Origin: a virus
IMG/VR virus record: IMGVR_UViG_3300020442_002036
Location: 1 to 32,982 of that record
Strand: one strand, 5' to 3'
Length of the DNA stretch: 32,982 nt
Shown here piece after piece: positions 1-26,808 of the stretch (position 1 is the first letter of the stretch; each line of letters begins with the position of its first letter). The notes beneath the pieces are model-generated. The model saw only the letters and a program-made list of their open reading frames with translations. It did not search any database and was not told where the DNA came from. The position numbers and the translations under genes are program-made.

Positions 1-3000
1 TATAGGTCACCGTTAGAGTTTAGACCAGTGTAGAATACAAGACCACCGTCTTGCTTCTTAGACTGTGCGTAGAAGTCCTGAGTTGTGGAAAGAATAACTT
101 CCTGTCTAGCAGGTAGACCAGTGGAGTAGTTACCTGGACCAAAACCAAGGTATTCAAACGTGTGGTTACCAGCACGAGCGATAGATGGTCGTCGCAATTC
201 AACATAGAATCTCTGATCAACAACAACTGTGCTGTCACCAGCGATAGAGATCTTACGATCTTCAGATCCAGAACTTGCATTACCTGATTGTGCCTTAAGT
301 GTATTATTACCAGTGTAATTATTGTTCTTAAGTGCCTCAGTAGCAAGGAAGTCAATGACAGATTCTTTAGTAGTTGAACCTTTGAAGTCGTTAACTCTAA
401 CTAAACCATGAACATAGTTGTCAGCAGCAGAGTATGTTGCTGGAGGATCAACAGCATTAGGATCAACTTGCTTGAACCATAGAGGATCGTTCTTATAGTT
501 GAGTGGATATAGTTTGCTGATTGGTTGAGAGAACTTGAAGTTCCTGAAGTTATTAAGGTTACCAGCACCAGTTGGGAATGGAGAAATGTTACCACGAACA
601 ACAGTTAGATAGTAAATACCATCTTGCTGATCAAAAATACGTCTCTGGATTTCCTCAACATCATACACATAGAATGTATCATCAAGTTCACCACAGTCAG
701 TTACAGACTCAACGTAGAATTGTACGTTGGCAGCGTCAGTAATAATATCACCAGGAGTGATAGTGTAAACCTTAGCACCGTTTTGTCTGTAGTAGAATTG
801 TGGTAGATTTTCTTTGATAAGATCCTTGCGTACAAGTGACTTACCACCATCAGGGAAGTCTAGTAGATCTGCAAATACAGTTCCCTGTGTAAATCTAATG
901 TTATCAGTAGAAGAGTACTTGATCTCACCAGATACACCCTTAATAATTAGGTGCCATGTAGTAGTACCAGGTACATTCAATGCAGCATGAAGATAACCAG
1001 AACCAGATGAATTACCAGCCCATGTTACAGCGTTTGCAGAAACATTCTGTGTCTTGTCAACAACAAAACTACCACCCTGAGGTGCAGTTACTTTGACTGT
1101 TGTAAAGATTTCATTCTTTAGACCAGTATTTGTAATGTTGTGATCAAATACTGTAAGTTCTAGATACTCATTGCTATTCTCTGTGTAGTATCTACCAGAT
1201 TGAATAGACATTGAAACATAGTTTGATGTCTCAATAACTCTTGTGTATTCCTTAGCACCTTTAGTATCTCTCTTATATGGATCATAGAAGATGTCCTCAC
1301 CAGCAGCATTAGTCTTGACAATGCTATTGGATGTGAAGTCAGCATCAGTGAAACCAATAATCTCGTTGGAGTTTCCACTATCTGTTGTGTTAAAGAACTT
1401 CGCCTTAGTTACATTACCAGATACAGGCTTAAGTCTGATCTTCTGTGGTAATAGTTTTCTAGTCTCGTCTTTTCTTGCTTTGATGGTGAATCCATTTAGA
1501 GGATCACGAACAGACTTAAGATACTTAGGAATTACATAACGTAGACGATAAATTCTATCTAGAGCAGTTCTTTCAGAATCATCAATTCTTTCATAGTAAG
1601 AGTCATTCGTCTTATTATTACCAGATGCATCACTATAGGTGCTATCATGGAATCTAGAAAGAATGCTTTGAGGATCATAGTCAGAAGAGTTAGGAGTAGA
1701 CTCATTCTTAACATTCAAATACCACTTACCCTTAGCACTTGTACCAACGTTACCATCATATGTTGGATCGTAACGCATGGGTGACTCACGCTTATCTGCG
1801 AATGCAGAGAAGTTGTAAGTGCCACTGTTAAGAGGAACAAAGATAATAGGATTAGTTGATGCAATAGCATCAGCATGTGTCTTATGGATTGTAATTACTT
1901 TAGCAGTATTATACCTAGCATAGAAGAACTTATCTCCTCTGAGTCTGCTATTGCTATCAGCAACATCAGGATCATTAGCAGAGGATCCACCTACGACTGG
2001 TAGATTGCCACCCTCATTTGCTCTAAAGAATACTTTATGAGGTGTGACTGAAGCATTAGGAACATCAAAGATGTGTGGAACATCAGTGATAATACCACCA
2101 CTTACACCAGTTGATAGTACGCAATTATATTCATGTAGATCATACTTGTCATCAAGAACGAACTGATAGATATCAATCTCAATGTCTGGATGAATTGCCT
2201 CTACTTCAGCAGAGTGAATGTAAATACCAGCAGCAGCGTTATCCTTACTGCTTGCAAGCATCAACTTAGTTTGATCGCTACCATTGAATGTAGTGTTACT
2301 AGCATAGTTTTCTGGTCTTGTATTTCTGCCAGGTGCAATTACATAATACTCAGTATTAGTATCAAAACCATTTGGTAGTCTTACATTACGCTTATCAACT
2401 TCAACATACTTGTTCTGTACAGTGTCATAACGTGGGCGTGGAACCAATCTTACTGGTGTTCCAGTCTCTAGTTGGTGAGGATTGGATCCTGATGTAGGAC
2501 CAGGTGTCCAGTCCTTGAGTCCCCAAATAGTTGCACGTGCAGATAGATCAGATGTAGCACTAGAAGGTTGAGTTCTAGTAACAGTACCGACACCAGTCTG
2601 GATGATTGTTGTGATGTTAGCAAAATACTGACGAATAGTATTAGCAACGCCATTACATTCTGGATAGACTGTATCCTGTGTGATAGTATCATCTACGTCA
2701 GGAGTATATGCTGTTGTATAACGACCAGCAGGTAGAGTGAAGTAGAGATATGAATTAGAAGTATCAGCAGTAGCATTAACAGCATTACCTGTTGATAGTC
2801 CTACTGGGGAGACAGTTCTATCAATTGCTGCTAGGTTGCCCTGTGTATTGATTGTATCTGTAATTAACTTGTATAGAGAAGAAATTGCAGAAGCAACATT
2901 CTGACAAGGACCGTTAGAGATATTTCTAGTTACACTTGCAAGTGATGCTGGAGTTGTTACAGTATCAGTAACAATCTTAAAGAGACTTTCAATAGTATTC

Positions 3001-6000
3001 TTAACATTATCACATCTGCTCTCACCAGTATGTCCTGTTCTGGTTACGCCAGCAAGACTTTCAGGTGTAGTAATAGCATTCTTAACAATGGTAGTTAGAG
3101 TAGTAATTGAAGACTCTACAGCATTACACTTGAATACTGATTGAGTACGAGCAACACCATTAAGTGTTGAGTTATTACTAATAGCATTAGTCAAGATGGT
3201 TGACAATGTAGTAATAGCAGTAGTTTCTGCTGCTAGTTGCTGAGCAGTCCAGTTGCTAGTACCAGATGCAGGATAAGTGATCTGTACAATATTTGTGTGA
3301 CCACCAACAGTAACTGCCTCACTCTTAATTACTTGAAGAGCAATATCCTTTAGGTGATTGATTGCTTCTACTGTCTCTGCAATAGAACCAGGTCCTACAG
3401 CACCACCAACATAGAGATTGGCAGTATCCCAAACTCTATCGTTACCACCATGCTTAACATTGTGAGCAATAACATCAACGATATCCTTTAGATCATCCTT
3501 ACAGTCATTGATTGAGTAACCAACAGGAGACTGGTAAGAAGGATTGTTGGCAATCATTCTGCCGAGTGCAATGTCAGCAATGAAGTTCTTATTCTGTGTA
3601 AGCAAACTAGCAGCATCAGAAGCTTGGTTGCTAACAATGCTTAGATTATCACCTGTAATTGTGTTATCAAATGTCTGAGTTAATCCATGCTTACCAACAA
3701 CGAGAACTTTCTCATTTCTCATTGCTTGAATCATGATCTCACTAGCATCTTGGAATGCTTCTAGTGTCTGAGTCTCTTCACCAGCAACATGAGCACCTGT
3801 AACATACAGTTGTGCCATATCCCAGACTCTATCATTACCACCAAATCCTACGTTGAAAGCAACTTCAACAACAAAGTCTTTGATGTCATCAATACAGTCT
3901 TGCTTGTTACCAGTTGGAGGTAAGAAACCAGGATGATTGATTAACATTCTCTCGTATGCTTCAGCAGCAATAAATGCAGCATTAGAATTGAGGAGATTGT
4001 ATGCATCACCAGCACCATTGTTTATGGCAGTCTGCGTATCAAGAGTAATTGTGGTATCATATGTTTGATGTAGACCATGAGAACCAATCGCAAGAATCTT
4101 CTGGTTCTTGATAACCTGAGCTGCCATATCTTTGGCGTGCTCAAATACAATGTTAGTCTCTGTCTCTTCACCTGCAACGTGAGCACCTGTCTTATAAGAA
4201 TAAGCAGCATCCCATGTCTTATCGTTACCACCGTATGCAACGTTATCTGCGATTGCTTCTAGTAGATCTCTGACATCATCAATACAGTCAGAATTATGAT
4301 ATGTTCTATTACCTGCAACAGAGAAGATCTTATGTACCGAGTCAGTCTTAGCAGATACAAATGTATGTGCGTAGTTACCACCAGCAATTAGAGCATTTGC
4401 TGTAGCAGATACAAACTGATGGACATATTGATCGCCAGCAGCAGAAGCACCTACGTTGACGGTAATTTTATTACCATTAACTTGGATAGCATTAGTTGCA
4501 GATCTCTTGAATGTGTGAACACCAGCGGGTTCATGCTTAACACTATTTGCAGTAGCACTTACAAATGTATGTGCAGACTGTGGTAGGTATTGAATTGCTT
4601 CACTGAGAGCACTTACAAATGTGTGAACGTACTGGTTGTTTGCATCAGCATCAAAACCAACGTTGAATGTAATGTCTCCAGTCTGCTTCTTAATACCACC
4701 AGCAGTAGCACTTACGAATGTATGTGTAGAGTTGTCAGAAGACTTACCTACGTTAACTGTGAATGTGTCGTTGGTCTTGCTTCTAATTTGTAACCAACGG
4801 TTGCTAGGATAATCAAATCCAGTACGAGGATACTGCTTGTTAGAAACATTACCATCTAGACTGCAACTAAATGTGAGTGAATTGTCAGAAACCTGAATGT
4901 AGTCACCACCATTAGAAACAGAGTTAGCAACAGCAGACACAAATGTGTGGACAGTTGTGTTGGTAGATGGGGAGTAATCAAGAATCTGTACATCAAATGT
5001 ATTTGTAGTTACATTAGATACAGTAAGATTTCTGCCACTTGCAGGATCACTTGGTCTAGGATAAGAATGGTTTGTTAGGTTGCCATCTTGTGTGCATGTA
5101 AACTTCAGTGCATAATCAGCAAGTCTTACAAAATCATTGTTATCCAAACCATGATTTGGAATTGTAAGAGTTACAATACCTGTAGTTGGATTGTATACAG
5201 CATTTGTAGGTGTGAATACCGCAGGACCTTGGAATCCATGATTAGCAACGGTGATTGTTAGATCACCAGTTGCAGGATCATATGCAGCATTAGTAGCAGT
5301 GTGACTAGAAGAACTTACATCTGTAATTCTGATTGACTTACCTGCTTTTGGATCTGTGCCAGGACGAGGATAAGAATGCTGAGTTGCATTGTTATCTTTA
5401 GAACAAGTAAAGGTTAGTGAATTATCTTTAAGAACAATATCATCCCCTACACGCAAGCCATGTTGTCCTATGGTGGCTACCATAACACCCGTTGCAGCGT
5501 TATAAGAAGCACCTGAAGGCTTGAAGAACTTGTTAGTTCCAGCATTACCAACCTTGACTGTAATTGTATCTGCTGTTACAGACTTGATCTTGAGTGATCT
5601 GCCAGATGCTTGATCTCTTCCTGCACGTGGATATGTTTGGGCAGTATCATTGCCATCCATGGTGCATTTGAAGGACAATGCATCATTTTCAATTAGAACA
5701 CCATCACCCTTAGAAAGGTTATGAGATCCAATAGTTAGAACTAAATCACCACTAGCAGGATCATAAGTTGCATTTGTTGGTGTGAATTGTTGGTTAGCAC
5801 CAGCAGCACCTACAGATACCTTGAATGTATCAGCAGTTACATTAGAAACTGTCAACCACTCACCATCAGCGGGATCGCCTTCTCTTGGATACTTATGCTC
5901 AGTAGCATTGTTATCCATTGCACATGTGAATGTCAGAGAATCCGTTGCGAGTTGAATTCTATCACCATTGACTAGACCATGAGCAGTCTTTGTAAAGACT

Positions 6001-9000
6001 AGATCGCCATTAGCAGGAGTATATGCAGCATCAGTTGGAGTGAAATAAGAGTTACCAACTTTAGTAATCTTAAGTGAATTTTGATATGCTCTATCCTTTC
6101 TTCTAACAATAGCATTTGCAGCAGCACTTACGAATGTATGTACTGAGGTATTGGTAGAAGGTGTGATATCCAATGTTTGAATATCAAATGTATTTGTAGT
6201 TACATTAGATACTGGAATGAACTTACCACTAATAGGATCAGTAGCACGAGGATATGTTTTTTGTGTCTGATTATTATCAGCAGCACAAGTAAATGTAAGT
6301 GAGTTATCAACAACATTGATTAGATCACCATTCTCAAACCCATGAGCATTCAGAGTAAATGTTAGAATACCTGTAGTTGGGTTGTATGCAGCATCTGTTG
6401 GTGTATGCTGAGTTGTATCACTTCTAGGATATACGTGATCAGTAGCGTAACTATCTTGAGAACACTTGAAGGTTAGAGAACCATCAGCAATTCTAACTGC
6501 TTGACCTTGCTGTAATTTATTGTTGTTAATAGTTAACTCAAGGTCACCAGTTGCAGGATTATAATCTGCATCAGTAACATTGTAATTAACAGTTGGTGAC
6601 TTGCCAACGTTAATTGTAAATGTATCAGTAGTTGATGCTGTAAGTGGGAGAATCTTGTTTGCAGCAGGATCGCTAATACGTGGGTAGGAATGCTGTGTAG
6701 CATTTCCATCCATAGCACAACTAAAGTTTAATGCATTATAATCAATTCTAACAGCATCATTTTCAGAAAGAACACCATTGCTTACAGCAGATACAAATGT
6801 ATGTGGATACTGATCAGCAGGAGCAGATTCACCAACGTTAACTTCAAATGTATCGTTAGTCTTGTTAGAAATTGTTAACCACTTTAGACTAGAGGGATCA
6901 GTTGCACGTGGATAAGTATGCTGAGTTGCATTACTATCTTTGGTGCATGTGAAAGTAATTGAATTATCCTTAATTAGAATTCTCTGTCCATTAGTGAATC
7001 CATGACCAGCAATGGTCAATACCAATTTACCACTGGATGGTGTGTATACAGCGTTTGTAACTGTATGCTCACTTGCCTTGGTCATACCATGACCAGCAGC
7101 AGTGATAACCATTTCACCAGTTGCAGCATTGTAAGTTGCAGCTGTGGGAGTATACTTCTGTACAGAAGAACCAAGAATCATTCTTTCAACTGCCTCAGCA
7201 GCAATTAGATTCTTGTTAGCAAGAATTAGATTACGAGCATCACCATTTCTATCAGCAACTAATTCTGGTTGATCAGTAGCAACAGGATCATTAGCAGTAA
7301 CCTTAGACTGTGTTAAACCATGAGCACCGAAGACAAATACATCTTCTTTACGCATGACCTGAACTGCCATGTCCTTACAATAGTTGAATGCTGCAAGAGT
7401 CTCGTTCTTGTTTGTTACTGCGTTTGTAACAGAACCTCTCTCGTAATAATCAGCAGCATCCCATGTTTCAGCATTACCACCATAACCTGTGTTATCTGCA
7501 ACAGCATCAATTGCTGTCTCTAAGTCAGCGATAAATGTAGCTTTGGTGTATCCAGCAGCAGGTGTATAACTAGGATAATCAAGAAGCATTCTCTCATATG
7601 CTTCGTTAGCAATGAATGTCTTGTTATTAACGATCAATGCACGGGCATCACCAAAACGACCTGTTACAAACTGTTTTTGTGCAGTTTGAGCATTGTCGCC
7701 CAACTCAATAGATGCAGAGTCAAGAACTCTCTTAACAAATGTATTGTTAGGAATTACAGGGTTTGTTGGTCTGGTAGCACCAGCATTTAATTTTCCATTA
7801 GTGAACTGACTAGGATCATAGTCAGCAACTGTCATACCCTCAACAACACCACTGGTATCACCGATGTTGACGATTGCACTATTATTAGTTGTAGTTACAC
7901 CTTCACGCAAATACGTAAAGTTACGCATTGCAGCAATAGCAAGATCCTTGGCGTAGTTATAACCCTCTAGAGTTTCAGTTAGTTCACCGTCAATATAAGA
8001 TAGGTTGTTACCAACGAAATATGCTTCAGCAGCTTGAATAGTATTGATGTTGCCACCAAGTCTCAAATCTTGTACTGTGGCGTCAATTAGATAACCAACG
8101 TCTCTACGACACTTGGTAATAGTAATAGTCTCTTTTACCTTGAGTGCTGGATACTTAGCAAGAATTCTGTCATATGCTTCATGAGCAATGAAGTCTTTGT
8201 TTGCTTCAATTCTATCAGCAGCATCAAGAATTTTATTATTAATAGTGACACCTGATGGATTCAGAATATCAGCAGTTGCAGTAAACTTCTTGAAACCACT
8301 AGGTTCTAGAGTTGCAAAGAATGTGTTATTACCACCAGCAGTTCTTGGGTTTAACTTGACATATAGTTTGTCGTCTGTCTTAGCACCAATTCTATAACCA
8401 CCAATAGTAGCAGCAGGACGCTTTTTAGGATCAATTGCGTCATCATCACCATGATAGATCTTGGTGTGGTTGCCAGGATCATTAGATGCATAAACATCTA
8501 GAGTATAATATGACTGTCTCTTCTTATTACCAGAAGTTTCATCAACAGTCTTAGGAGGAACAATGTCAGTAATATATCCACCTTTGTCCTGACTGAACGC
8601 AAATCCTTTATGACCGATTGCGTGTAGTGAGGTGTTACCAAAGTTGGAGTTAGAGTTGGTGATAGACATATCACCACCACTTTCCATTAGGAAGTGATCA
8701 GCGAAACCAACAGCGAAGATACTAACACACTGAATAAATGCGTCTTCAGATGCACGAACGTGGAAGTTTCTCCAGTCATCTTTCCAGAATGCATCACCCT
8801 TAGTATGATAAGGTACTGTTGCGAATGCGTCTGTTAGAGATGCTTGGTTGAATGTGTTTGTAAATTCATCGTATCTGATGAATGCTCTGTCGTCTTTCTG
8901 TAGAGAAACACCCGTGTACTGAGCGATAACCATGGATTTGAATCCAGTGGCTTTTAGACCATTCGCCCAGATACCGCAAATACCCCACGTAGAACGGATG

Positions 9001-10181
9001 GAACAGTTGAAGACGTAGGGGGATGCAGACTCAACAGAGTCAACTTCTGCTTTTACGACTGCATTAGAGTTTAAGCCGTTTGCTGTGGTATAAGTTGTAC
9101 CACTAACAAGACTAGTATTTGTACCTAGTGTGCTTACACTACCAGGAATTTGGTAAGAGAATTTTTTCTTATCTACCAGATCAAGAGATGAGATTGAGAA
9201 TGTACCATCAATCTGATCATCTAGACCATTGTTTTCAATAGCGATGAACTGGTTCCTGAAGTAACCATGATTAACTTTTGTGGTAACTTCAACAGTGATA
9301 GTTCCTCTTGGAGAAGAATCTGTACACTTAATAGACTCAATAGCACGGATGTCAGAAAGAGGACCTACAATTCTGTTCTCTTCAATTCTGTCACCAAATT
9401 CATTGGCATCATCAATTGTTGGTTGATACTCAGAAAATGCTTTTGCAATCTTCTGATAGTAAAGACCTAGTTCTTCTTTATCTGCATATTCAAATACAGT
9501 TAGTTTGTGGTGAGAGAAGTTAGGTACAGCAAGTTGAGTCCATGCACTGCCAGGACTGTCAGCAGGTGGTGTTTGATAATATACTTTTGCAACACCATCG
9601 GTTGAATTATATAATGGTGATGTTGGTTCTAGATCGCCATCCTTGATGGTAAACTGCCAGAAATATGTACCACCAGTTACGTTGAAGATTGCTGATCTTG
9701 CTTCAATTGGATCAGCAGGATCGGGAACATATAAAGGACGTACAATAGTTCTACGTAGATCGTAACCAATGATAGAAGAACCACGAGGAATAATAACACC
9801 ACCCTCTGTGTTATTAAACTTATAAAGAATGTTGTTTGGATCTGAGAGATCTAGAATGGAATCATCATTCCACTCACTTAATGCTTGATCAAAATTAAAG
9901 GCGTTGATGCCAGTAGTAGAAGTAAGACCAGGACGGTTATCAATGTAATGGTTACCAGGCATCACCATAACGGTGAATTGGTCAAACCTGTCGTTGTCTA
10001 TGCCAGGTACATATGAGAAACGTGAAATCTCAATAAATGCTCTTTGAAGAGATTTAAAAGGTCTAATAGGGGAGTTACCTCTATTATTAAGTTCATCTGA
10101 CGCATTAAAATCGTCAGGAGACACATACAAATACTTACCAGTTTTAGAACTAATAAGATTGTCAAGTCTAGTCAATGCCAT
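1..10181 (-). CDS. Giant repeat-built virion protein, partial (3' end outside window)
   Basis: A single frame stays open from the ATG at 10181 to the left edge, giving at least 3,393 residues with no stop. The N-terminus (MALTRLDNLISSKTGKYLYV, then a segment rich in aromatic beta-strand-like residues) resembles the very large structural proteins annotated in T4-type cyanophages. From the start inward: a unique beta-rich N-terminal region (about 700 residues), helical modules with GGN..WD..Y and EAYERM motifs, a long array of beta modules with TFTC...YPR...DP motifs and HTFVSA linkers, more helical modules, a run of C.NV..TI modules, then another beta-rich region. A T4-type late promoter lies 37 bases upstream and a purine-rich ribosome site (GTAGAAG) precedes the ATG. 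The modular, Asn/Thr/Asp-rich composition suggests an extended fibre or whisker-like appendage, but that role is inference. The spot translations along the region are mutually consistent. Confidence 0.85.
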   Translation of the reverse strand, partial: MALTRLDNLISSKTGKYLYVSPDDFNASDELNNRGNSPIRPFKSLQRAFIEISRFSYVPGIDNDRFDQFTVMVMPGNHYIDNRPGLTSTTGINAFNFDQALSEWNDDSILDLSDPNNILYKFNNTEGGVIIPRGSSIIGYDLRRTIVRPLYVPDPADPIEARSAIFNVTGGTYFWQFTIKDGDLEPTSPLYNSTDGVAKVYYQTPPADSPGSAWTQLAVPNFSHHKLTVFEYADKEELGLYYQKIAKAFSEYQPTIDDANEFGDRIEENRIVGPLSDIRAIESIKCTDSSPRGTITVEVTTKVNHGYFRNQFIAIENNGLDDQIDGTFSISSLDLVDKKKFSYQIPGSVSTLGTNTSLVSGTTYTTANGLNSNAVVKAEVDSVESASPYVFNCSIRSTWGICGIWANGLKATGFKSMVIAQYTGVSLQKDDRAFIRYDEFTNTFNQASLTDAFATVPYHTKGDAFWKDDWRNFHVRASEDAFIQCVSIFAVGFADHFLMESGGDMSITNSNSNFGNTSLHAIGHKGFAFSQDKGGYITDIVPPKTVDETSGNKKRQSYYTLDVYASNDPGNHTKIYHGDDDAIDPKKRPAATIGGYRIGAKTDDKLYVKLNPRTAGGNNTFFATLEPSGFKKFTATADILNPSGVTINNKILDAADRIEANKDFIAHEAYDRILAKYPALKVKETITITKCRRDVGYLIDATVQDLRLGGNINTIQAAEAYFVGNNLSYIDGELTETLEGYNYAKDLAIAAMRNFTYLREGVTTTNNSAIVNIGDTSGVVEGMTVADYDPSQFTNGKLNAGATRPTNPVIPNNTFVKRVLDSASIELGDNAQTAQKQFVTGRFGDARALIVNNKTFIANEAYERMLLDYPSYTPAAGYTKATFIADLETAIDAVADNTGYGGNAETWDAADYYERGSVTNAVTNKNETLAAFNYCKDMAVQVMRKEDVFVFGAHGLTQSKVTANDPVATDQPELVADRNGDARNLILANKNLIAAEAVERMILGSSVQKYTPTAATYNAATGEMVITAAGHGMTKASEHTVTNAVYTPSSGKLVLTIAGHGFTNGQRILIKDNSITFTCTKDSNATQHTYPRATDPSSLKWLTISNKTNDTFEVNVGESAPADQYPHTFVSAVSNGVLSENDAVRIDYNALNFSCAMDGNATQHSYPRISDPAANKILPLTASTTDTFTINVGKSPTVNYNVTDADYNPATGDLELTINNNKLQQGQAVRIADGSLTFKCSQDSYATDHVYPRSDTTQHTPTDAAYNPTTGILTFTLNAHGFENGDLINVVDNSLTFTCAADNNQTQKTYPRATDPISGKFIPVSNVTTNTFDIQTLDITPSTNTSVHTFVSAAANAIVRRKDRAYQNSLKITKVGNSYFTPTDAAYTPANGDLVFTKTAHGLVNGDRIQLATDSLTFTCAMDNNATEHKYPREGDPADGEWLTVSNVTADTFKVSVGAAGANQQFTPTNATYDPASGDLVLTIGSHNLSKGDGVLIENDALSFKCTMDGNDTAQTYPRAGRDQASGRSLKIKSVTADTITVKVGNAGTNKFFKPSGASYNAATGVMVATIGQHGLRVGDDIVLKDNSLTFTCSKDNNATQHSYPRPGTDPKAGKSIRITDVSSSSHTATNAAYDPATGDLTITVANHGFQGPAVFTPTNAVYNPTTGIVTLTIPNHGLDNNDFVRLADYALKFTCTQDGNLTNHSYPRPSDPASGRNLTVSNVTTNTFDVQILDYSPSTNTTVHTFVSAVANSVSNGGDYIQVSDNSLTFSCSLDGNVSNKQYPRTGFDYPSNRWLQIRSKTNDTFTVNVGKSSDNSTHTFVSATAGGIKKQTGDITFNVGFDADANNQYVHTFVSALSEAIQYLPQSAHTFVSATANSVKHEPAGVHTFKRSATNAIQVNGNKITVNVGASAAGDQYVHQFVSATANALIAGGNYAHTFVSAKTDSVHKIFSVAGNRTYHNSDCIDDVRDLLEAIADNVAYGGNDKTWDAAYSYKTGAHVAGEETETNIVFEHAKDMAAQVIKNQKILAIGSHGLHQTYDTTITLDTQTAINNGAGDAYNLLNSNAAFIAAEAYERMLINHPGFLPPTGNKQDCIDDIKDFVVEVAFNVGFGGNDRVWDMAQLYVTGAHVAGEETQTLEAFQDASEIMIQAMRNEKVLVVGKHGLTQTFDNTITGDNLSIVSNQASDAASLLTQNKNFIADIALGRMIANNPSYQSPVGYSINDCKDDLKDIVDVIAHNVKHGGNDRVWDTANLYVGGAVGPGSIAETVEAINHLKDIALQVIKSEAVTVGGHTNIVQITYPASGTSNWTAQQLAAETTAITTLSTILTNAISNNSTLNGVARTQSVFKCNAVESSITTLTTIVKNAITTPESLAGVTRTGHTGESRCDNVKNTIESLFKIVTDTVTTPASLASVTRNISNGPCQNVASAISSLYKLITDTINTQGNLAAIDRTVSPVGLSTGNAVNATADTSNSYLYFTLPAGRYTTAYTPDVDDTITQDTVYPECNGVANTIRQYFANITTIIQTGVGTVTRTQPSSATSDLSARATIWGLKDWTPGPTSGSNPHQLETGTPVRLVPRPRYDTVQNKYVEVDKRNVRLPNGFDTNTEYYVIAPGRNTRPENYASNTTFNGSDQTKLMLASSKDNAAAGIYIHSAEVEAIHPDIEIDIYQFVLDDKYDLHEYNCVLSTGVSGGIITDVPHIFDVPNASVTPHKVFFRANEGGNLPVVGGSSANDPDVADSNSRLRGDKFFYARYNTAKVITIHKTHADAIASTNPIIFVPLNSGTYNFSAFADKRESPMRYDPTYDGNVGTSAKGKWYLNVKNESTPNSSDYDPQSILSRFHDSTYSDASGNNKTNDSYYERIDDSERTALDRIYRLRYVIPKYLKSVRDPLNGFTIKARKDETRKLLPQKIRLKPVSGNVTKAKFFNTTDSGNSNEIIGFTDADFTSNSIVKTNAAGEDIFYDPYKRDTKGAKEYTRVIETSNYVSMSIQSGRYYTENSNEYLELTVFDHNITNTGLKNEIFTTVKVTAPQGGSFVVDKTQNVSANAVTWAGNSSGSGYLHAALNVPGTTTWHLIIKGVSGEIKYSSTDNIRFTQGTVFADLLDFPDGGKSLVRKDLIKENLPQFYYRQNGAKVYTITPGDIITDAANVQFYVESVTDCGELDDTFYVYDVEEIQRRIFDQQDGIYYLTVVRGNISPFPTGAGNLNNFRNFKFSQPISKLYPLNYKNDPLWFKQVDPNAVDPPATYSAADNYVHGLVRVNDFKGSTTKESVIDFLATEALKNNNYTGNNTLKAQSGNASSGSEDRKISIAGDSTVVVDQRFYVELRRPSIARAGNHTFEYLGFGPGNYSTGLPARQEVILSTTQDFYAQSKKQDGGLVFYTGLNSNGDL
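2580..3240 (-). repeat. Five-copy C.NV..TI module array in the giant protein
   Basis: The encoded protein repeats a unit of about 40-45 residues that reads roughly TTL.TIV.NAITTP.SLAGVTRT followed by C.NV..TI. Four to five copies are visible between 2580 and 3240, most carrying one cysteine just before the NV motif. The helical heptad-like spacing of the small hydrophobic residues suggests a coiled or bundled rod; this is inferred from pattern only. Confidence 0.65.
3310..4330 (-). repeat. Helical module copies in the giant protein (second half of the set)
   Basis: Three consecutive copies of a roughly 105-residue module can be read here. Each has a FIA.EAYERM-like segment (absent from the first, see the interruption at 4330-7212), then DC.DD..D, V..NV..GGND..WD.A..Y, GEET.T.EAF and a closing V..GKHGL.QT motif. 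Approximate limits on the plus strand are 3310-3585, 3670-3990 and 4050-4310. Two further complete copies of the same module lie at about 7310-7620 and 7915-8200. Confidence 0.7.
4330..7170 (-). repeat. Tandem beta-module array (TFTC...YPR...DP and HTFVSA) in the giant protein
   Basis: About nine copies of a 75-90 residue module are encoded. The core reads TPTNA.Y.P.TGDL.LTI..HGL..GD.V...DNSLTFTC..D.NATQHSYPR, then a DP..GK segment, V(S)NVT..TF.V.VG. The YPR motif falls near 4827, 5058, 5364, 5625, 5885, 6250, 6428, 6680 and 6910. Nine HTFVSA-type linkers (near 4355, 4405, 4500, 4555, 4605, 4705, 4935, 6125 and 6785) punctuate the array. DNA copies have diverged enough that the repeats are clearer in protein than in nucleotide. 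Confidence 0.75.
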
Positions 10182-15815: not shown

Positions 15816-18650
15816 CTACGGACAATCAATATAAGAACCAGTTCCAACCTTAGCAGAACCAATCTTAATTCTATTCTCAGCATCTAGACATGAGAACGAA
15901 GGAATAAACCTTGCTCCATATCCACCACCACCAAGAACTTTAATTTCTGGATAAGCATCAAATGTTAGAGTTCTATTTTTTATCCTGACACTGACAACTT
16001 GACCTCTATCATTAATTACTGCTTCAGCAACATTAGGGTCTCCATCAACAAATACTGTGGGTTCTGTGGTATATTCTCTTCCTGGTGTAATCATAGTAAA
16101 GGCATCAATAATACATTCTAAGTTTTCTGTTTCTGGTTTGTTAATTTTATAACCAAAACCAGGATCCATGATACGAATCTCTGTGGCAAATCCGTTAGGA
16201 TCTAAAAGAACCTCTCCTGATGCTCCGTATCCAGCACCAGTAATGAAAACTTTAGGGGGTTCTGTGTATGGGTCACCAGTATCATCAATTGGAACGCTAA
16301 TAATTCCACCAGTATTGTCAGTAATAGGACTTCCTGCTCTGGGTAGAGAAGGTATATTATCTTGAGTATCATTAGATGATTCATCTTCTAACTCATTGAT
16401 TGCCTCAGAACTAAGTGATGCAGTATCAGAGGTAATTAAAACAGATGCAGATGCTCCTGTGCCAGGTATAGAGAAGATCAGTGATTCTTCATCTTCAATC
16501 ACATTGTCCTTGGCAATACCAACAACAACAATTGCTTTAGATTCTTCAATAATAAAAGTACCTATTAAATTATTACCAACAATATCGGATGGGGATATAC
16601 TAGGTCCAAATAGTTGATATCTTAGAGTTGTTCCTTCTGGAACATTTGTAGTTGTGATAGTATAAGTAACAAACTCTCCTTCTTTTACAGTAAATTTATC
16701 AGGAGTAACATCGTAAGTTGGAAGTGTGGTAGTATCATTATCACCTGTTCCATTCTGTGTATTACCAGTAAATGGATCATCTGTTGGATCACCAATAGTA
16801 GGTGGATTTGCTGGTACAGCAATACCACTATCAGGAGTGACTGGTGTAGTTCCAGATGAAATAGAACTTTCCTTAATGACACACCTAGCAATATTTTTTA
16901 CAAAAGTTGAGGTAGGAACAGTAGCACCGTCTTTGATGTTTCTATCTGGTGTCTCCACTTTAAGTCTGACAAAGAAATCCTCTTGAACTTCTTTAATTGA
17001 GTCAACAAAAGTTCTAACAGTAATATATTGTACTGTCTCACCTATACGGAAACCTACAATACCACTAGACTCTTGGTAATCATCTCCTTTGAGAGCACTG
17101 CCATCTCTTGTTTTAAATGAAATACTAGATGCAATATCAGTCATGCCAGATCTAGTAATCGTAAATGTTGCTTCCTCTCCTTCTGTTACTTCTATATCAG
17201 AAATATTATACACTATATTTCTCTGCTGTGGTTGAATTCCACCAACAAATGTAATGTCTGTAGGACTCACTCTTGTTCCTTCTTTGTCGTCCTTACATGT
17301 GTATTGTGTCCAATCTTCAGCATCAAATTTATCCAGATCCTCTAGCAACTCATCAAGAAAATCTTTCTTCTTCCCTGTGCTGCAATTTGTGCATTTTACT
17401 GTGGTTTTAGCACATCTTTTTTTAGGTCCGCTACACTTAATACCAAGAAGATTTAAAACATAATTGATTGCCTCTCCAATCATGTTGATTGGTTTTGCAA
17501 TAGCACCAAGAATAGATTGTAAAGGTCCTAAGATATCTGATAACAATGAATTCATCAGAGACTGTATCTTATTGAGAAGACCACTGATGAATTTATCTAA
17601 CTGACATGCTGTTTGCTTGTAGATGTTAAAGAGATATCCAAATATAACATCAGTCAACCATTGTGCTAAGCGTTCACCAAGATCTGCCATTTCACAACCA
17701 ACTTTTGCTAGTTGATCATTTAAAAATTTGGTGATTCCTGACAGAGAATTACCTTCATCTGTTGGTTGTATTATGGCATCTACTAGGTCTTTAACACCTG
17801 CCTTAATTTTCTTTAAAACATAACCTTTGATTTTGGCAACAAATGATTTAACAAGATAAATTGCCTTATCTACATACTGCCTACCAAGGTCAACGGAGTC
17901 AAATAAACCACCTGATAGTTCATTAACTAAGTAAGTTCCTAGTTTACCATTGTTCCTTTGTGTCTCATATAGCATTTCGCTAAAGAGTCTTTGGAAGTTA
18001 TTTTTTAGGTCGCCTTCTTTACCACACTTATCTGCTTTCTCTACACAGAAATTGATTCCTCCAGCATTACCCTCACCATTTTCTCCATATTTTTGCTTTA
18101 CAATTGTAGTGAGAGGAGAAGTAATTACAGCATCGTTGGTTCTTAATTTTCCATCTGCAACAACACCAGCACCTTGTGCATCAACTGGACAAACTTTTTT
18201 ATCAGATGCATTTTGATCTGCTGCAAGTTTTGCAGCGTCCACATATGTTGTAAAAGAATTACAACCATCCTCTGCTGTTGGTTTATCTTCCGTCTCGGTT
18301 TTGGTAGAGTTCGCTACTCTACCAACACTTCCCATAATTACAGGTTGTTGTTTATCATTATCTAAAAAGAATCCAACAACCCAACAACCAGAAACAAGTT
18401 GTGATGATACAGATGCTACTGCACCTACTCTGTGAGGATTAGTCACAGGCATCATCTGAATCGCCCAAGGCAAGTCATCGTCCTGTACAACATCACAAGA
18501 TTGTGGATGTAAACCTACAATACGTACCTTACATCTACCAGAACCTTTCGGGTCATCTCTGTGATCTTTTTCAACTTGACCAATCCACCAATTAAAACCA
18601 TCGGATCCTAATTGATGTATTGGGTATAAACTTGCTAGGGATTGATCCAT
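15816..18650 (-). CDS. 5: gp5-like baseplate hub protein with Calx-beta-like domains
   Basis: 944 residues from the ATG at 18650 (a TTG at 18659 would add three). Residues about 15-115 (FNWWIGQVEKDHRDD, RCKVRIVGLHPQ, LPWAIQMMPVTNPH, GCWVVGFFLD, QQPVIMGSVG) form the gp5 OB-fold domain. Then come a helical, hydrophobic region (about 210-400), a cysteine cluster near 405-430, two Calx-beta-like domains (about 480-580 and 645-737; motifs VTEGEEATFTITRSG and VKEGEFVTYTI), and Y..PP.V.I.G.GYGA repeats near the end. T4 gp5 has 575 residues and a central lysozyme; no lysozyme motif is visible here, so this protein may be structural only. Just downstream of cp12. Confidence 0.8.
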   Translation of the reverse strand: MDQSLASLYPIHQLGSDGFNWWIGQVEKDHRDDPKGSGRCKVRIVGLHPQSCDVVQDDDLPWAIQMMPVTNPHRVGAVASVSSQLVSGCWVVGFFLDNDKQQPVIMGSVGRVANSTKTETEDKPTAEDGCNSFTTYVDAAKLAADQNASDKKVCPVDAQGAGVVADGKLRTNDAVITSPLTTIVKQKYGENGEGNAGGINFCVEKADKCGKEGDLKNNFQRLFSEMLYETQRNNGKLGTYLVNELSGGLFDSVDLGRQYVDKAIYLVKSFVAKIKGYVLKKIKAGVKDLVDAIIQPTDEGNSLSGITKFLNDQLAKVGCEMADLGERLAQWLTDVIFGYLFNIYKQTACQLDKFISGLLNKIQSLMNSLLSDILGPLQSILGAIAKPINMIGEAINYVLNLLGIKCSGPKKRCAKTTVKCTNCSTGKKKDFLDELLEDLDKFDAEDWTQYTCKDDKEGTRVSPTDITFVGGIQPQQRNIVYNISDIEVTEGEEATFTITRSGMTDIASSISFKTRDGSALKGDDYQESSGIVGFRIGETVQYITVRTFVDSIKEVQEDFFVRLKVETPDRNIKDGATVPTSTFVKNIARCVIKESSISSGTTPVTPDSGIAVPANPPTIGDPTDDPFTGNTQNGTGDNDTTTLPTYDVTPDKFTVKEGEFVTYTITTTNVPEGTTLRYQLFGPSISPSDIVGNNLIGTFIIEESKAIVVVGIAKDNVIEDEESLIFSIPGTGASASVLITSDTASLSSEAINELEDESSNDTQDNIPSLPRAGSPITDNTGGIISVPIDDTGDPYTEPPKVFITGAGYGASGEVLLDPNGFATEIRIMDPGFGYKINKPETENLECIIDAFTMITPGREYTTEPTVFVDGDPNVAEAVINDRGQVVSVRIKNRTLTFDAYPEIKVLGGGGYGARFIPSFSCLDAENRIKIGSAKVGTGSYIDCP

Positions 18651-18655
18651 CTTAT

Positions 18656-18883
18656 TCAATCATCATAAACTAAACACTCAGGTTCTGAGGGAAATTGATC
18701 ACAATACAATTCTAGGTATGTAGGATCATGGTGATCACCTGCTGCAATCTCCTTCTTATGATGCTCTCTATACTCTTCCAATTCTCTGAGTTCACCTTCT
18801 ACATGGCGTCTCATTTGTGGATTAGTTGTTGGATCTTGAAGGATCTCTTTATCTTTTTGGATATGTTGTTCTATACTTTCCAT
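18656..18883 (-). CDS. cp12: CP12-like Calvin cycle inhibitor
   Basis: 75 residues with an acidic, disordered-looking helical N-terminus and the diagnostic C-terminus: CDQFPSEPEC followed by LVYDD (Cys 61 and Cys 70, eight residues apart). In plants and cyanobacteria this end binds GAPDH while the protein clamps PRK, shutting the Calvin cycle. Only the C-terminal cysteine pair is present, as in many picocyanobacterial and phage forms. Cyanophage CP12 is thought to redirect carbon to the pentose phosphate route. An AGGT site precedes the ATG at 18883. It sits inside the tail operon, between hub protein and gp5, with 7 and 5 base gaps. Confidence 0.9.
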   Translation of the reverse strand: MESIEQHIQKDKEILQDPTTNPQMRRHVEGELRELEEYREHHKKEIAAGDHHDPTYLELYCDQFPSEPECLVYDD

Positions 18884-22396: not shown

Positions 22397-25078
22397 TTAT
22401 GCCTCGGCACCTAACCTTGCGAATATTAAAGCTTTCATATCAAATTCACTACTACAATTAGCACTTGTAACAAGAGGAGTAGCAGTTACATTACTCATAA
22501 TGTTATTAACAACTACCACTGGTTGAGTGGTTTTTCTTTTAACATCATTTCTATCAGAACTCTTAGTAGTAACTAATTGTGCTTTACCAGTGTTACTCAT
22601 CATATTAGACGCTGTAACATAGTTATCTATAGAACCTGATGATGAAACTGAATTAGCATCAGTTCCAGATGATGAATTTGGTTTCAATTTATCTAGTAAA
22701 CCATGAGGAGTGCTACCACTTGCTCCCATTATTATTCTAATAAGAGCATCAGCATTACGATATTTTGCTGCACTACCTGGTTCAAAGAAATCAAGACTAG
22801 TGTGCCATCCACTCATTCGTCCAGCATTATTAGGTTGTAGTTGCGGAACACCAGGTGTATCAACACTAACAAAACCAACTTTTCCTAAGATATCACCAGC
22901 ACCAATTTCTTGACCTGGTTTGACATAAATCCCACCATCGGGGAAGTGAGAGTATAATGCATCAAACTCCTGTCCGTTACTTGGATCTACACTCCTGACA
23001 ACAACTACGTTACCATAATTTTTACCATAAAGGAGTCCTGTCTCAAGAACTGTGCCAGGAAAAACATTGTAATTATTCTTATAATCTTTGAAACTAAAAT
23101 CAAGACCTGGTTCTCCAGATAAATCTTTTCCTTGCTGACCATAGAATTCAATAGTTGAACTATCACTCTTAGGTTTCATTAATGGTGTTACTGGTGTAAC
23201 ATTAGATCCTCCACCACCTTTATTATCGTTGTCTTTAGAAAATACTTGTAAAGGATCTAATATCCTTTGCCACCAAGGTCTTCCACCAGTATATCCTGGT
23301 TCCTCTTTATCTTCACCATTATCTTCACCATTATCATCAGTTTCCTCTTCCTCTGCTGCCTTTTGTGCTTTTCTAATTTTTGGCAACTCACGATCTTCAA
23401 TCATCTTTTGCTGAGTAGCAACAGTCTTTCCACTTGCAGGAGTAAGATCAAAGTTATATGATCCTGTTGGTGTAACAGTGCTTAATCCCTGAGCACTAAC
23501 CAAAGCTTTAGTATCAACACCTGCTGCTTGACCTAATGCTATTGTCATTCCAACAATATCAGTAATTAAAGGCATTACTGTTGGTGATGCTACAACGTTA
23601 GGAGTTCCACGTTCAAATTGATCAGGAGTAATACCAATTGCTTGCATAAAGAAATTAGCAAAATTTTCATCCGTTAACAATGGTAAATTTGGTTCAATAT
23701 GTGCTTCATATGCAGATTTATCAATATCACGCAAAATATCAAGCATAGCAAATCCCCAACCAGCAAATGGAATAGCACTACCAAAAGACAGTAACATACC
23801 CTTAGGATCGCCCATGAGAAGGCGAGCTATACCTTCAACTGCACCAATAGCAGTACCAACAAGAGGGAAACCACCTTTAACAGCACCAGTTGCCGCCTTT
23901 TTACCTAATTTCTTTGCACCTTCTCTACCTACTTTTTTAATAAGTAAATTTCTTGCTTTGGGACTATTAAAAAATGCCATCAGAATATTATTCTGCATGG
24001 TCTTCGCAACTTTTTTTCTAGCTGCTGAATTGAAGAGAAGACTCTTTCTGCCCGTTTTTTGAAGTGCCCTTTTACCAATCTCCGTTGTCGTTTCTCCTAC
24101 AACTTTTTGTCCTGGTCTCATTCCAACAAGTGCTTCTAGAGCATCATCTGCCATATCACCAGCGGCATCTCTTGCAGCACGATCGCTCAATAATTTAGAA
24201 CCATATTTTTTAGTTACTTTTTTAGTAAAAACGTCATCTAATGAAGGAATTGTCCTATTACCTAATGCTTTTGTAATTCTCTTTTTAGGTATTAAGTTTA
24301 AACCTCGCTCTTTTGCCAAATTTGATAAAGTTCTAGAAACTTTAGGAGCATATCTTTTAATAATTTGTCTAGAAGGTTGCTTTGTCTGTAAACCTAAAAC
24401 TTTACTTAATATTTTTGGAGATACAAAACGAGCAATTGTTGTGAGTGCCTTTTGCTTTATAGCTTTTAATCTAATGGTTTTAGCAACCATTTTTCTAAGT
24501 GCTCTAGCAATAGGAGACCTACCCCTCATAAATTGACGAATACCAAGTCTTTTCAGTAGATCTTGCATGACAGCAAAATCTCCACCACCAGTATCAAGAA
24601 GTCCAAAAGTTCCTGATACATCATTTCCTTGTTCTAATTGCCTCTCTAATTCCTCAAGAACAGCATCTTCTCTTGCTTTTGCAAGAGTCTCGTTCCTCAT
24701 ATTTAAGACGCCCAACATTGCGTCTAACTTTTCTTCCAGAATTTGATTCTGGTTTATAATTAAACTCTGCGTATCTGCAACCGCAGCACCAATAGTCGTA
24801 ATTTTAGCAGACATGGCATCTGAAGTTGCCTTTGTCTGTAAAATTTTAGCTTCTAATGGAATAAAATTTTTAACTACAGTCTCACGAAGACTGCTATCCT
24901 GCACAGGGATAGATTTTGGGTCATTTTGAGTTAACTTTTTTGCTGCGTCTTTTACCTCTTTAGACGCTTGTGCTGTCTCATCTCTCTTTTTATCATCATA
25001 ATCTTTTATAGCACCATAAATCTTACCAGCGATAAATACGCCAAAATCTCCAGTATATGTCTTGGTAAGTCCTGCCAC
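22397..25078 (-). CDS. Large tail protein with degenerate M23 peptidase domain, tape-measure candidate
   Basis: 893 residues from a GTG at 25078 that overlaps the previous stop (TAGTG). The N-terminus has the KTYTGDFG motif shared with the next gene, then helical coiled regions. A basic, amphipathic stretch (about 190-400) and a hydrophobic segment near 415-470 (GTAIGAVEGIARLLMGDPKG, LSFGSAIPFAGWGFAMLDIL) look like a membrane-inserting part of a tape measure. Residues about 654-790 are a LytM/M23-type domain (YGNVVVV, ALYSHFPDGGIYVKPGQEI, GDILGKVG, GWHTSLDF), but the first zinc His is replaced by Glu (GEPGLDF) and the HxH motif is HTS. It lies just after the gp26/51 chaperone-like pair, the usual place for a tape measure. 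Confidence 0.65.
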   Translation of the reverse strand: MAGLTKTYTGDFGVFIAGKIYGAIKDYDDKKRDETAQASKEVKDAAKKLTQNDPKSIPVQDSSLRETVVKNFIPLEAKILQTKATSDAMSAKITTIGAAVADTQSLIINQNQILEEKLDAMLGVLNMRNETLAKAREDAVLEELERQLEQGNDVSGTFGLLDTGGGDFAVMQDLLKRLGIRQFMRGRSPIARALRKMVAKTIRLKAIKQKALTTIARFVSPKILSKVLGLQTKQPSRQIIKRYAPKVSRTLSNLAKERGLNLIPKKRITKALGNRTIPSLDDVFTKKVTKKYGSKLLSDRAARDAAGDMADDALEALVGMRPGQKVVGETTTEIGKRALQKTGRKSLLFNSAARKKVAKTMQNNILMAFFNSPKARNLLIKKVGREGAKKLGKKAATGAVKGGFPLVGTAIGAVEGIARLLMGDPKGMLLSFGSAIPFAGWGFAMLDILRDIDKSAYEAHIEPNLPLLTDENFANFFMQAIGITPDQFERGTPNVVASPTVMPLITDIVGMTIALGQAAGVDTKALVSAQGLSTVTPTGSYNFDLTPASGKTVATQQKMIEDRELPKIRKAQKAAEEEETDDNGEDNGEDKEEPGYTGGRPWWQRILDPLQVFSKDNDNKGGGGSNVTPVTPLMKPKSDSSTIEFYGQQGKDLSGEPGLDFSFKDYKNNYNVFPGTVLETGLLYGKNYGNVVVVRSVDPSNGQEFDALYSHFPDGGIYVKPGQEIGAGDILGKVGFVSVDTPGVPQLQPNNAGRMSGWHTSLDFFEPGSAAKYRNADALIRIIMGASGSTPHGLLDKLKPNSSSGTDANSVSSSGSIDNYVTASNMMSNTGKAQLVTTKSSDRNDVKRKTTQPVVVVNNIMSNVTATPLVTSANCSSEFDMKALIFARLGAEA

Positions 25079-25224
25079 TATTTGTTCTTAGCTGCTTCTT
25101 GTTTTTGTTTGAGTTCTTCAAGGTATTGGATAAGGAATGTAGTATATACTTCCCTTTCCCAAGGTATCATATCTTCAATCTCAGTCAAACTATATTTATG
25201 GTACTGCATCAAGGCAAAATTCAT
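25078..25224 (-). CDS. 51: gp51-like frame, also reachable by -1 frameshift from gp26
   Basis: The frame encodes MNFALMQYHKYSLTEIEDMI, then PWEREVYTTFLIQYLEEL and a basic tail, 48 residues from ATG 25224. Upstream of that ATG the same frame stays protein-like (FFRIALFQNNLEGYYR) back into the end of gp26. The slippery site and hairpin at 25234-25272 would join the two frames, giving a product of about 298 residues. PWERE with the preceding SL..E..M is typical of phage tail assembly chaperone extensions. There is no good ribosome site in front of ATG 25224. Its stop overlaps the GTG of the tape-measure candidate. Confidence 0.7.
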   Translation of the reverse strand: MNFALMQYHKYSLTEIEDMIPWEREVYTTFLIQYLEELKQKQEAAKNK

Positions 25225-25233
25225 TCTATAATA

Positions 25234-25272
25234 CCCTTCCAGATTGTTTTGGAAGAGTGCTATGCGAAAAAA
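25234..25272 (-). promoter_or_regulatory. Predicted -1 programmed frameshift element
   Basis: The heptamer T TTT TTC (25272-25266) is in the correct phase with the gp26 codons AGT TTT TTC, followed 8 bases later by a 7-bp hairpin (CTCTTCC / GGAAGGG, one G-U, 10-base loop, 25257-25234). The gp26 stop (25260-25262) lies within the spacer and the base of the stem. Slippage by one base leads directly into the gp51-like frame. Confidence 0.7.
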
Positions 25273-25973
25273 CTCTGTAAACCCTCAATTGTGTAGTTAG
25301 ACTCTTTACCAGTTTCAGGATTTGTAACTGTGAAAGAATGCGACAATTTTGGAAGAGTACTATAAAAATACTGGATCTTCTCAAATTGCTTTGTAGTCAA
25401 ACTATCAACAAATTGACGAAATTCCTTTTTTGTAGTAGTAGAGGAGTCATATACCTCTTCATCATCAAATATCTGATCAATTGAATTTGCGATAAAGGTA
25501 TAAACCTCTTCAGTATTCATTTCCTTCTGTAAGAACTCCCTATCAATGAATTCTTGCATACTAGGGTAATTCATGACAATACCAGTCTTTTCATCAAACA
25601 TGATTTTAGGATCATGTCCTTCTACCTTCAATACCTCAACATCATTAATATTGATTTGTGCCTCTACCTGAGTTTTGTTGTCGTCAAGACACGTAACAGT
25701 CAAACTGACAACTTCACCAATAGATGCTGCTCTGATCTTCAAAAAGAGATATTCAAGGTCAAAACTAGGCAATGTATCTATCTTAATGCGTGAAATAACG
25801 CAATTTTTCAATAAATCCTTTACCGCACCAATTATCTGTTTTTCGTCTTCTGACTCAAGTGCCATCAATAGCACTTTTTCCTCTTTTACGAGAAATGGGC
25901 GATATTTGATAGTTTTCCCTGTAGAGGGTAAATCAAGTTCATACGTTGGATACCCTAACTTTGGTAATGCCAT
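25260..25973 (-). CDS. 26: gp26-like baseplate hub assembly / tail chaperone protein
   Basis: 237 residues starting MALPKLGYPTYELDLPSTGK and KYRPFLVKEEKVLLMALESED, the hallmark start of the T4 gp26 family (T4_baseplate). Residues about 40-110 contain DLLKNC, FDLEYLFLKIRAASIGEV, also family features. T4 gp26 and gp51 are needed for hub assembly but are not clearly part of the finished baseplate, and have been proposed to act as tape-measure chaperones. Here the last codons hold a -1 frameshift signal, so two products are expected. It is the first gene of the long minus-strand tail operon and has an exact late promoter 20 bases upstream. A little over half of the product is acidic helix. Confidence 0.85.
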   Translation of the reverse strand: MALPKLGYPTYELDLPSTGKTIKYRPFLVKEEKVLLMALESEDEKQIIGAVKDLLKNCVISRIKIDTLPSFDLEYLFLKIRAASIGEVVSLTVTCLDDNKTQVEAQININDVEVLKVEGHDPKIMFDEKTGIVMNYPSMQEFIDREFLQKEMNTEEVYTFIANSIDQIFDDEEVYDSSTTTKKEFRQFVDSLTTKQFEKIQYFYSTLPKLSHSFTVTNPETGKESNYTIEGLQSFFA

Positions 25974-26073: not shown

Positions 26074-26808
26074 CTATACGTCTTGAATTCCGAAAACTGC
26101 TACACTAGTTCCTTGATAAGGTCTGGTGAGATCAAGACCACCCGTATCTCGCTGTGCCTGTGCTAAATCAAGTGGATCCAATCTGTAACCATAATCAACG
26201 GTGTGTCTAGAATAATAGAAGTTTACGTTGACTCTTGCTATCTGTGAACTACCATAAGAAAGAGGAACCGCATCAATAGAGTATGGATATGCATTTTCAA
26301 GAATAAATTGTACAGGTGCTCTACCACAAGCACTAGTAGCATTAGGTTCTGTCTTAATTATTCGTAGATTGCAAGTATAATCGTCCATATATTTGATACG
26401 ATTAGTTCTATTTCTGTTTTTGGGTGCAACCTCAATAGCTTTGTAAATACCACCTTGATGAGTTTCATCTAACTCACCGTAAATAAAGTTATACCAAGAG
26501 TGAAAGAACCTTAATGGTAACATTTCAGCATCACAAAGAAATCCCAGTGTTAGATCTGTAAACATTCTTCCTGTTGGATACTGGAATGCATTTTCACCAA
26601 GATATCTACCAGATAATTGACCAGTAGCAGATTGCACATTAGGTAGTTGTGCTTCATCACATAACATGTGTACAATATCTGTTTCAACCTGTGCTGAGTA
26701 TATATTTGGATTCAAGTCCGAAAAGTACACATCAAAGTTAGTCGTAAGGGACATACCCCCTTGACGACCAATTTTTGACATAAATTCGTCTATACGTGTT
26801 ACTGCCAC
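26074..26808 (-). CDS. Tail-tube-like baseplate protein (gp54- or gp19-like)
   Basis: 244 residues from a GTG at 26808. The N-terminal TTNFDVYFSDLNPNIYSAQVE, the central QLPNVQSATGQLSGRYLGEN, PTGRMFTDLTLGFLCD segment and FFHSWYNFIYGE match the tail tube fold, in which a loop before the strand carries QLPN and the turn FHSWYN is typical. T4 has three such proteins (gp19 tube, gp48 and gp54 caps). gp48 is at 27982, so this is probably a gp54-like tube initiator, or a tube paralogue. It is expressed alone, between its terminator and the divergent gp4 gene only 30 bases away. Confidence 0.65.
   Translation of the reverse strand: MAVTRIDEFMSKIGRQGGMSLTTNFDVYFSDLNPNIYSAQVETDIVHMLCDEAQLPNVQSATGQLSGRYLGENAFQYPTGRMFTDLTLGFLCDAEMLPLRFFHSWYNFIYGELDETHQGGIYKAIEVAPKNRNRTNRIKYMDDYTCNLRIIKTEPNATSACGRAPVQFILENAYPYSIDAVPLSYGSSQIARVNVNFYYSRHTVDYGYRLDPLDLAQAQRDTGGLDLTRPYQGTSVAVFGIQDV

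Follow-up and report, generated by a model that had tools for sequence, protein, structure and literature searches.

A probable programmed -1 frameshift at the end of gp26 adds a gp51-like domain in a T4-like cyanophage

The window, i.e. the whole stretch of DNA analysed, is the 32,982-base record IMGVR_UViG_3300020442_002036 of a T4-like cyanophage, with Synechococcus phage S-CAM1 as the closest named relative of its gp26 (72 %). Four elements of the minus strand follow each other, given here in gene order with TAC for tail assembly chaperone:

26074..26808, minus strand: tail tube protein, upstream of gp26 (Pfam Phage_TTP_2, 4.8e-51)
25260..25973, minus strand: gp26, the proposed TAC-N, a 237-aa zero-frame product (Pfam T4_baseplate, 7.8e-69; phrog_150, 9e-75)
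25078..25272, minus strand: gp51-like domain, the proposed TAC-C, read in the -1 frame as FF...KNK from the slip (phrog_634, 1.1e-26; stop codon TAG at 25080-25078)
22397..25078, minus strand: 893-aa tape-measure candidate (position, hydrophobic segments, C-terminal M23 peptidase-like domain)

The gene context of gp26 is thus a tail tube gene upstream and a tape-measure candidate downstream. The 893-aa open reading frame (ORF) had no match to a tape-measure family in Pfam and PHROG profile searches; its candidacy comes from the position, hydrophobic stretches at about 404-520 and a Pfam Peptidase_M23 match near the C-terminus (9.8e-06, just under the curated cut-off). As the initial annotation had stated, the -1 frame ends at the GTG start of this large protein, the TAG at 25080-25078 sharing one base with the GTG at 25078. 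Elsewhere on the minus strand of the window, a gene of the CP12 family lies between tail genes (18656-18883; Pfam 9.3e-12), an auxiliary gene of the Calvin-cycle inhibitor type. A gp5-like protein of the baseplate hub/tail lysozyme family (15816-18659) carries an OB and a Calx-beta domain, while a lysozyme domain was absent among its Pfam matches. An ORF of at least 3393 aa (3-10181) runs off the window end.

The 3' end of gp26 reads GAG GGT TTA CAG AGT TTT TTC GCA TAG and contains a heptamer that fits the in-phase X XXY YYZ pattern of -1 frameshift sites. Four features of this end are considered below:

25282..25286, minus strand: Shine-Dalgarno-like (SD-like) GAGGG, 9 nt upstream of the heptamer, within Glu-Gly (E-G) codons; a candidate stimulator, from GAG enrichment
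25266..25272, minus strand: slippery heptamer T TTT TTC, in phase with gp26
25260..25262, minus strand: gp26 stop codon TAG, one codon past the heptamer
25233..25258, minus strand: 9-bp hairpin, 7 nt past the heptamer, with the arms ACTCTTCCA (25258-25250) and TGGAAGGGT (25241-25233) and an 8-nt loop

The heptamer was found where it had been proposed, in the last gp26 codons at 25272-25266, as the single in-phase T TTT TTC among the minus-strand genes examined in the window. The -1 frame is open from 25284 to 25078 and has its first ATG at 25224; the protein-like FFRIALFQNNLEGYYR lies ahead of this ATG. In conceptual translation, a -1 slip yields the junction …GLQSFFRIALFQNNLEGYYRMNFALMQYHKYSLTEIEDMIPWERE…. 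The length of the open frame is weak evidence, as a frame remains open over 61 codons from 16 % of the positions in a window so dense in coding sequence; the argument therefore rests on conservation.

Seventy-nine IMG/VR relatives with gp26 proteins 57-86 % identical all had TTTTTTC at the same place and an open -1 frame. One of them, L044, showed an apparent frame-breaking indel further downstream. Further searches together with 18 annotated phage loci gave 303 unique related loci; 286 of these had an in-phase T-TTT-TTN at the gp26 end and a gp51 domain in the -1 frame. The heptamer was also present in named phages of cyanobacteria, Methylophilales, Ochrobactrum, Pseudomonas, Stenotrophomonas, Vibrio, Rhizobium and Aeromonas. 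At the 5' end of the -1 frame, the mean entropy was 1.11, 0.65 and 1.56 bits at codon positions 1, 2 and 3, a coding-type variation before any ATG, and the start of the frame encodes invariant residues (FF at the slip). Hence the -1 frame is not only open but protein-like ahead of its first ATG, as initially annotated. The gp51-like domain had a mean column identity of 59 % over 34 loci.

Both domains occur in a single protein of T4. T4 gp51 (249 aa) matched PF12322, the gp26 family, over residues 1-201 (3.9e-52) and phrog_634, the family of short gp51 proteins, over residues 147-246 (1.2e-23); T4 gp26 matched PF12322 only. The conceptual fusion of gp26 and the -1 frame of the window aligned with T4 gp51 through the slip point, gapless there, with an E-value of 5e-6. 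Judged by this domain make-up, T4 gp51 corresponds to the proposed fusion, naturally present as one continuous protein; since it has both domains, T4 would carry as two genes what the phage of the window would make by slipping in one. The AlphaFold2 model of gp26 (pLDDT 86.5) had the tail assembly chaperone of HK97 (2ob9) as its first PDB match, a moderate one confined to the N-terminal third (Z 7.8 over 84 residues, Foldseek E-value 0.65, 11 % identity). The model of the gp51-like domain was helical (pLDDT 84). Searches of PDB sequences with gp26 and gp51 profiles and of NCBIfam revealed no relative, and in Pfam no TAC family matched gp26 beyond T4_baseplate.

In one alternative, gp51 is a separate short protein translated from an internal start of its own, ATG 25224 or another, by ribosomes that are coupled to gp26 translation or re-initiate past its stop. 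Many public records annotate gp51 from an internal ATG, the gp51 of Vibrio, Rhizobium and Stenotrophomonas phages is called at TAATG or TGATG overlaps with the gp26 stop, and an ATG just past this stop leaves room for occasional coupled re-initiation in some lineages. However, conserved -1 coding begins at the slip with the invariant FF, before any ATG, and no ATG, GTG or TTG was found in the -1 frame upstream of FFRIALFQ in any of 106 representatives, so that the frameshift reading survives. The first start codon occurs at scattered positions and is absent in some loci; where present, it lacked an SD site in 97 of 98 cases and was preceded by an SD-like one in a single case. An independent start also leaves the conservation of the heptamer without a reason, and T4 has both domains fused. 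An independent start is disfavoured by these observations and appears improbable.

Codon usage around the terminal Phe-Phe was counted in 102 representatives less than 80 % identical to each other. The codon before Phe-Phe ended in T in all 102 (background 40 %), the first Phe codon was TTT in all 102 (background 69 %), and the second was TTC in 87 of the 94 with Phe at this place (background 31 %). The gp26 protein does not need these synonymous choices, and by these counts the heptamer is conserved beyond the amino-acid need. They bear on the explanation that TTTTTTC is kept only for the terminal FF of gp26, the -1 frame being read by rare unprogrammed slippage or never. Phe-Phe is indeed nearly invariant at the gp26 end, yet the synonymous choices are fixed as well, with T in the preceding third position throughout and TTT followed by TTC rather than by the usual TTT, and the -1 frame encodes a conserved family of proteins, which T4 carries within a single ORF; retention for the amino acids alone is very unlikely. 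That an originally continuous gene was broken by an indel from sequencing or assembly has practically no probability left: single-base frame differences are typical of indels and L044 seems to have one further downstream, but an artefact is refuted by about 300 independent contigs and isolate genomes in which the gene is split at exactly this base.

Seventeen of the 303 unique loci keep a homologous -1-frame domain without the canonical heptamer; they are of the T765 type (Ackermannviridae) or belong to Vibrio phage K351. These loci read …ATTTTCAT[T/C]TAA… or …CTTTTCAAGTAATGG…. The loci L096, L263-L280 (gp26 ends) and L099 represent this Ackermannviridae type and Vibrio phage K351 and have no X XXY YYZ heptamer. 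Among the Ackermannviridae-type loci, RATTTTCATYTAAT(T/G)TTTGAAA is conserved, and some show a TAATG overlap.

The hairpin downstream of the heptamer had been described as 7 bp (CTCTTCC/GGAAGGG) after an 8-base spacer; it is present, and extends to 9 bp after a spacer of 7 nt. In comparison to synonymous recodings of the same -1-frame peptide, the window hairpin was more stable (z = -3.97). Over 34 close relatives the nine pairs were kept in 95.8 % of the cells, with one double change from C-G to G-C, and the covariation score was reached in 9 of 500 shuffles. In P-SSM2-type phages a second hairpin, also of 9 bp but paired in another register, has three pairs changed on both sides; its covariation score beats all 500 shuffles. 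Over 100 representatives the mean z was -1.76 at the site versus -0.27 at two control regions (p < 1e-6). About 45 % of the representatives had a z below -2, while excess stability was absent (z above -1) in 41 of the 100, hence a universal hairpin was rejected. Most members of the syn9/S-RIM12-type lineage (L087, L088, L100-L118) keep the heptamer without excess hairpin stability. Because of these 41 representatives, the predicted hairpin is at most a helper for the frameshift. The slip position and the extension are conserved throughout; the hairpin is lineage-specific and not universal. Of the conservation expected for both elements, that of the heptamer was borne out in virtually every close relative and in many distant ones, that of the hairpin only within lineages.

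Of 90 representatives, 62 have GAG GGN as the E-G codons at this site. GAG is used at 29 % in the gene background and in 14 of 56 E-G pairs at other places (Fisher p = 2e-7; p-values on codon bias ignore shared ancestry beyond the thinning at 80 % identity). An internal Shine-Dalgarno stimulator of frameshifting is known from dnaX, and by analogy the GAGGG probably fits such a role. We tentatively consider, with somewhat less than even confidence, a wider model: a three-part signal of an SD-like GAGG about 9 nt upstream, the poly-T heptamer and the hairpin would drive the shift; cyanophage lineages would have lost the hairpin or rebuilt it with other pairing registers, always retaining the heptamer; and Ackermannviridae would make the same domain by re-initiation or a non-canonical slip. 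The SD-like site and the hairpin turnover were not found in the literature searched, which covers the primary study of 2022 through papers citing it.

Some ribosomes very probably shift frame at the gp26 end and add the extra domain, as read from the conserved site. We regard it as highly likely that the locus encodes a TAC-N/TAC-NC pair made by programmed -1 frameshifting in the manner of lambda G/GT. This gene logic had already been suggested by the initial annotation, and it gains support from the conserved heptamer, the two-domain make-up of T4 gp51 and the match of the gp26 model to the HK97 TAC. The layout of the site, its conservation, the coding character of the -1 frame, the homology between the conceptual fusion and T4 gp51 and the fold match to a TAC are computed results; that ribosomes slip here, how often they do so and that the products act as chaperones in this phage is what we infer. 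On this reading, gp26 and the -1-frame extension would make up a single chaperone gene for tail assembly, from which two products arise. The majority of ribosomes would end at the TAG and release TAC-N (gp26, 237 aa). A minority may pause at the heptamer T TTT TTC, with help from the hairpin and probably from the SD-like GAGGG ahead of it, move back by one base there and read on into the gp51 domain, giving a TAC-NC of about 300 aa (...GLQSFFRIALFQNN...). By analogy to lambda G/GT, the chaperones, abundant in the short form and scarce in the long one, would cover the adjoining tape-measure protein and recruit tail tube subunits.

Short and long chaperone forms arise by programmed -1 frameshifting in lambda gpG/gpGT. 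The lambda heptamer is G GGA AAG and thus differs from the one described here; the comparison is one of gene logic, and a strong hairpin accompanies only part of the gp26 family. Among solved structures, residues 1-85 of the gp26 model fit the HK97 TAC (2ob9) best, but the identity is 11 % and gp26 has about 150 more residues without a clear match. T4 gp26 and gp51 resemble the short and long forms, although each has its own gene, the two lie on opposite strands, and no frameshift links them. Vladimirov and coworkers reportedly described in 2022 frameshifting in several groups of T4-like phages and separate genes 26 and 51 in T4. PMC3004832 lists the T4 proteins gp26 and gp51 as chaperones of hub assembly, with gp51 needed for assembly and absent from the particle.

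The novelty implied by the initial annotation does not hold, frameshifted TACs of T4-like phages having been published in 2022. That study (Vladimirov, Gautam & Davidson, Virology 2022, 566:9-15, doi 10.1016/j.virol.2021.11.003) reportedly identified the TAC genes of T4-like phages, and these resemble the present case in a gp26-type TAC-N with a TAC-C extension and a poly-T signal. One citing paper, PMC12846349, states that poly-T slippery signals are found in TAC-N genes of T4-like phages; another, PMC10885494, states that some of these phages carry a separate short gene together with a long fusion gene. The TAC of phage Adele (Pakpunavirus/Vandenendeviridae; PMC12846349) also has a -1 frameshift near the TAC-N end, a poly-T motif and a -1 frame open to the tape-measure gene; however, its motif is GTTTTT and the phage lineage is a different one; the likeness described is one of frameshift layout. 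The gp26-gp51 frameshift is a further case of the published TAC principle of T4-like phages.

None of the cyanophage or other records examined with the heptamer joins both frames; gp51 is either missing or called from an internal ATG. The reading presented here corrects the annotation in one of the commonest phage groups of the ocean. It is also an independent confirmation, from sequence alone, that the short and long TACs of T4 are gp26 and gp51, which have long been entered as assembly factors of the baseplate hub. The lineage-dependent hairpins and the SD-like site offer a natural series on what sets the efficiency of frameshifting.
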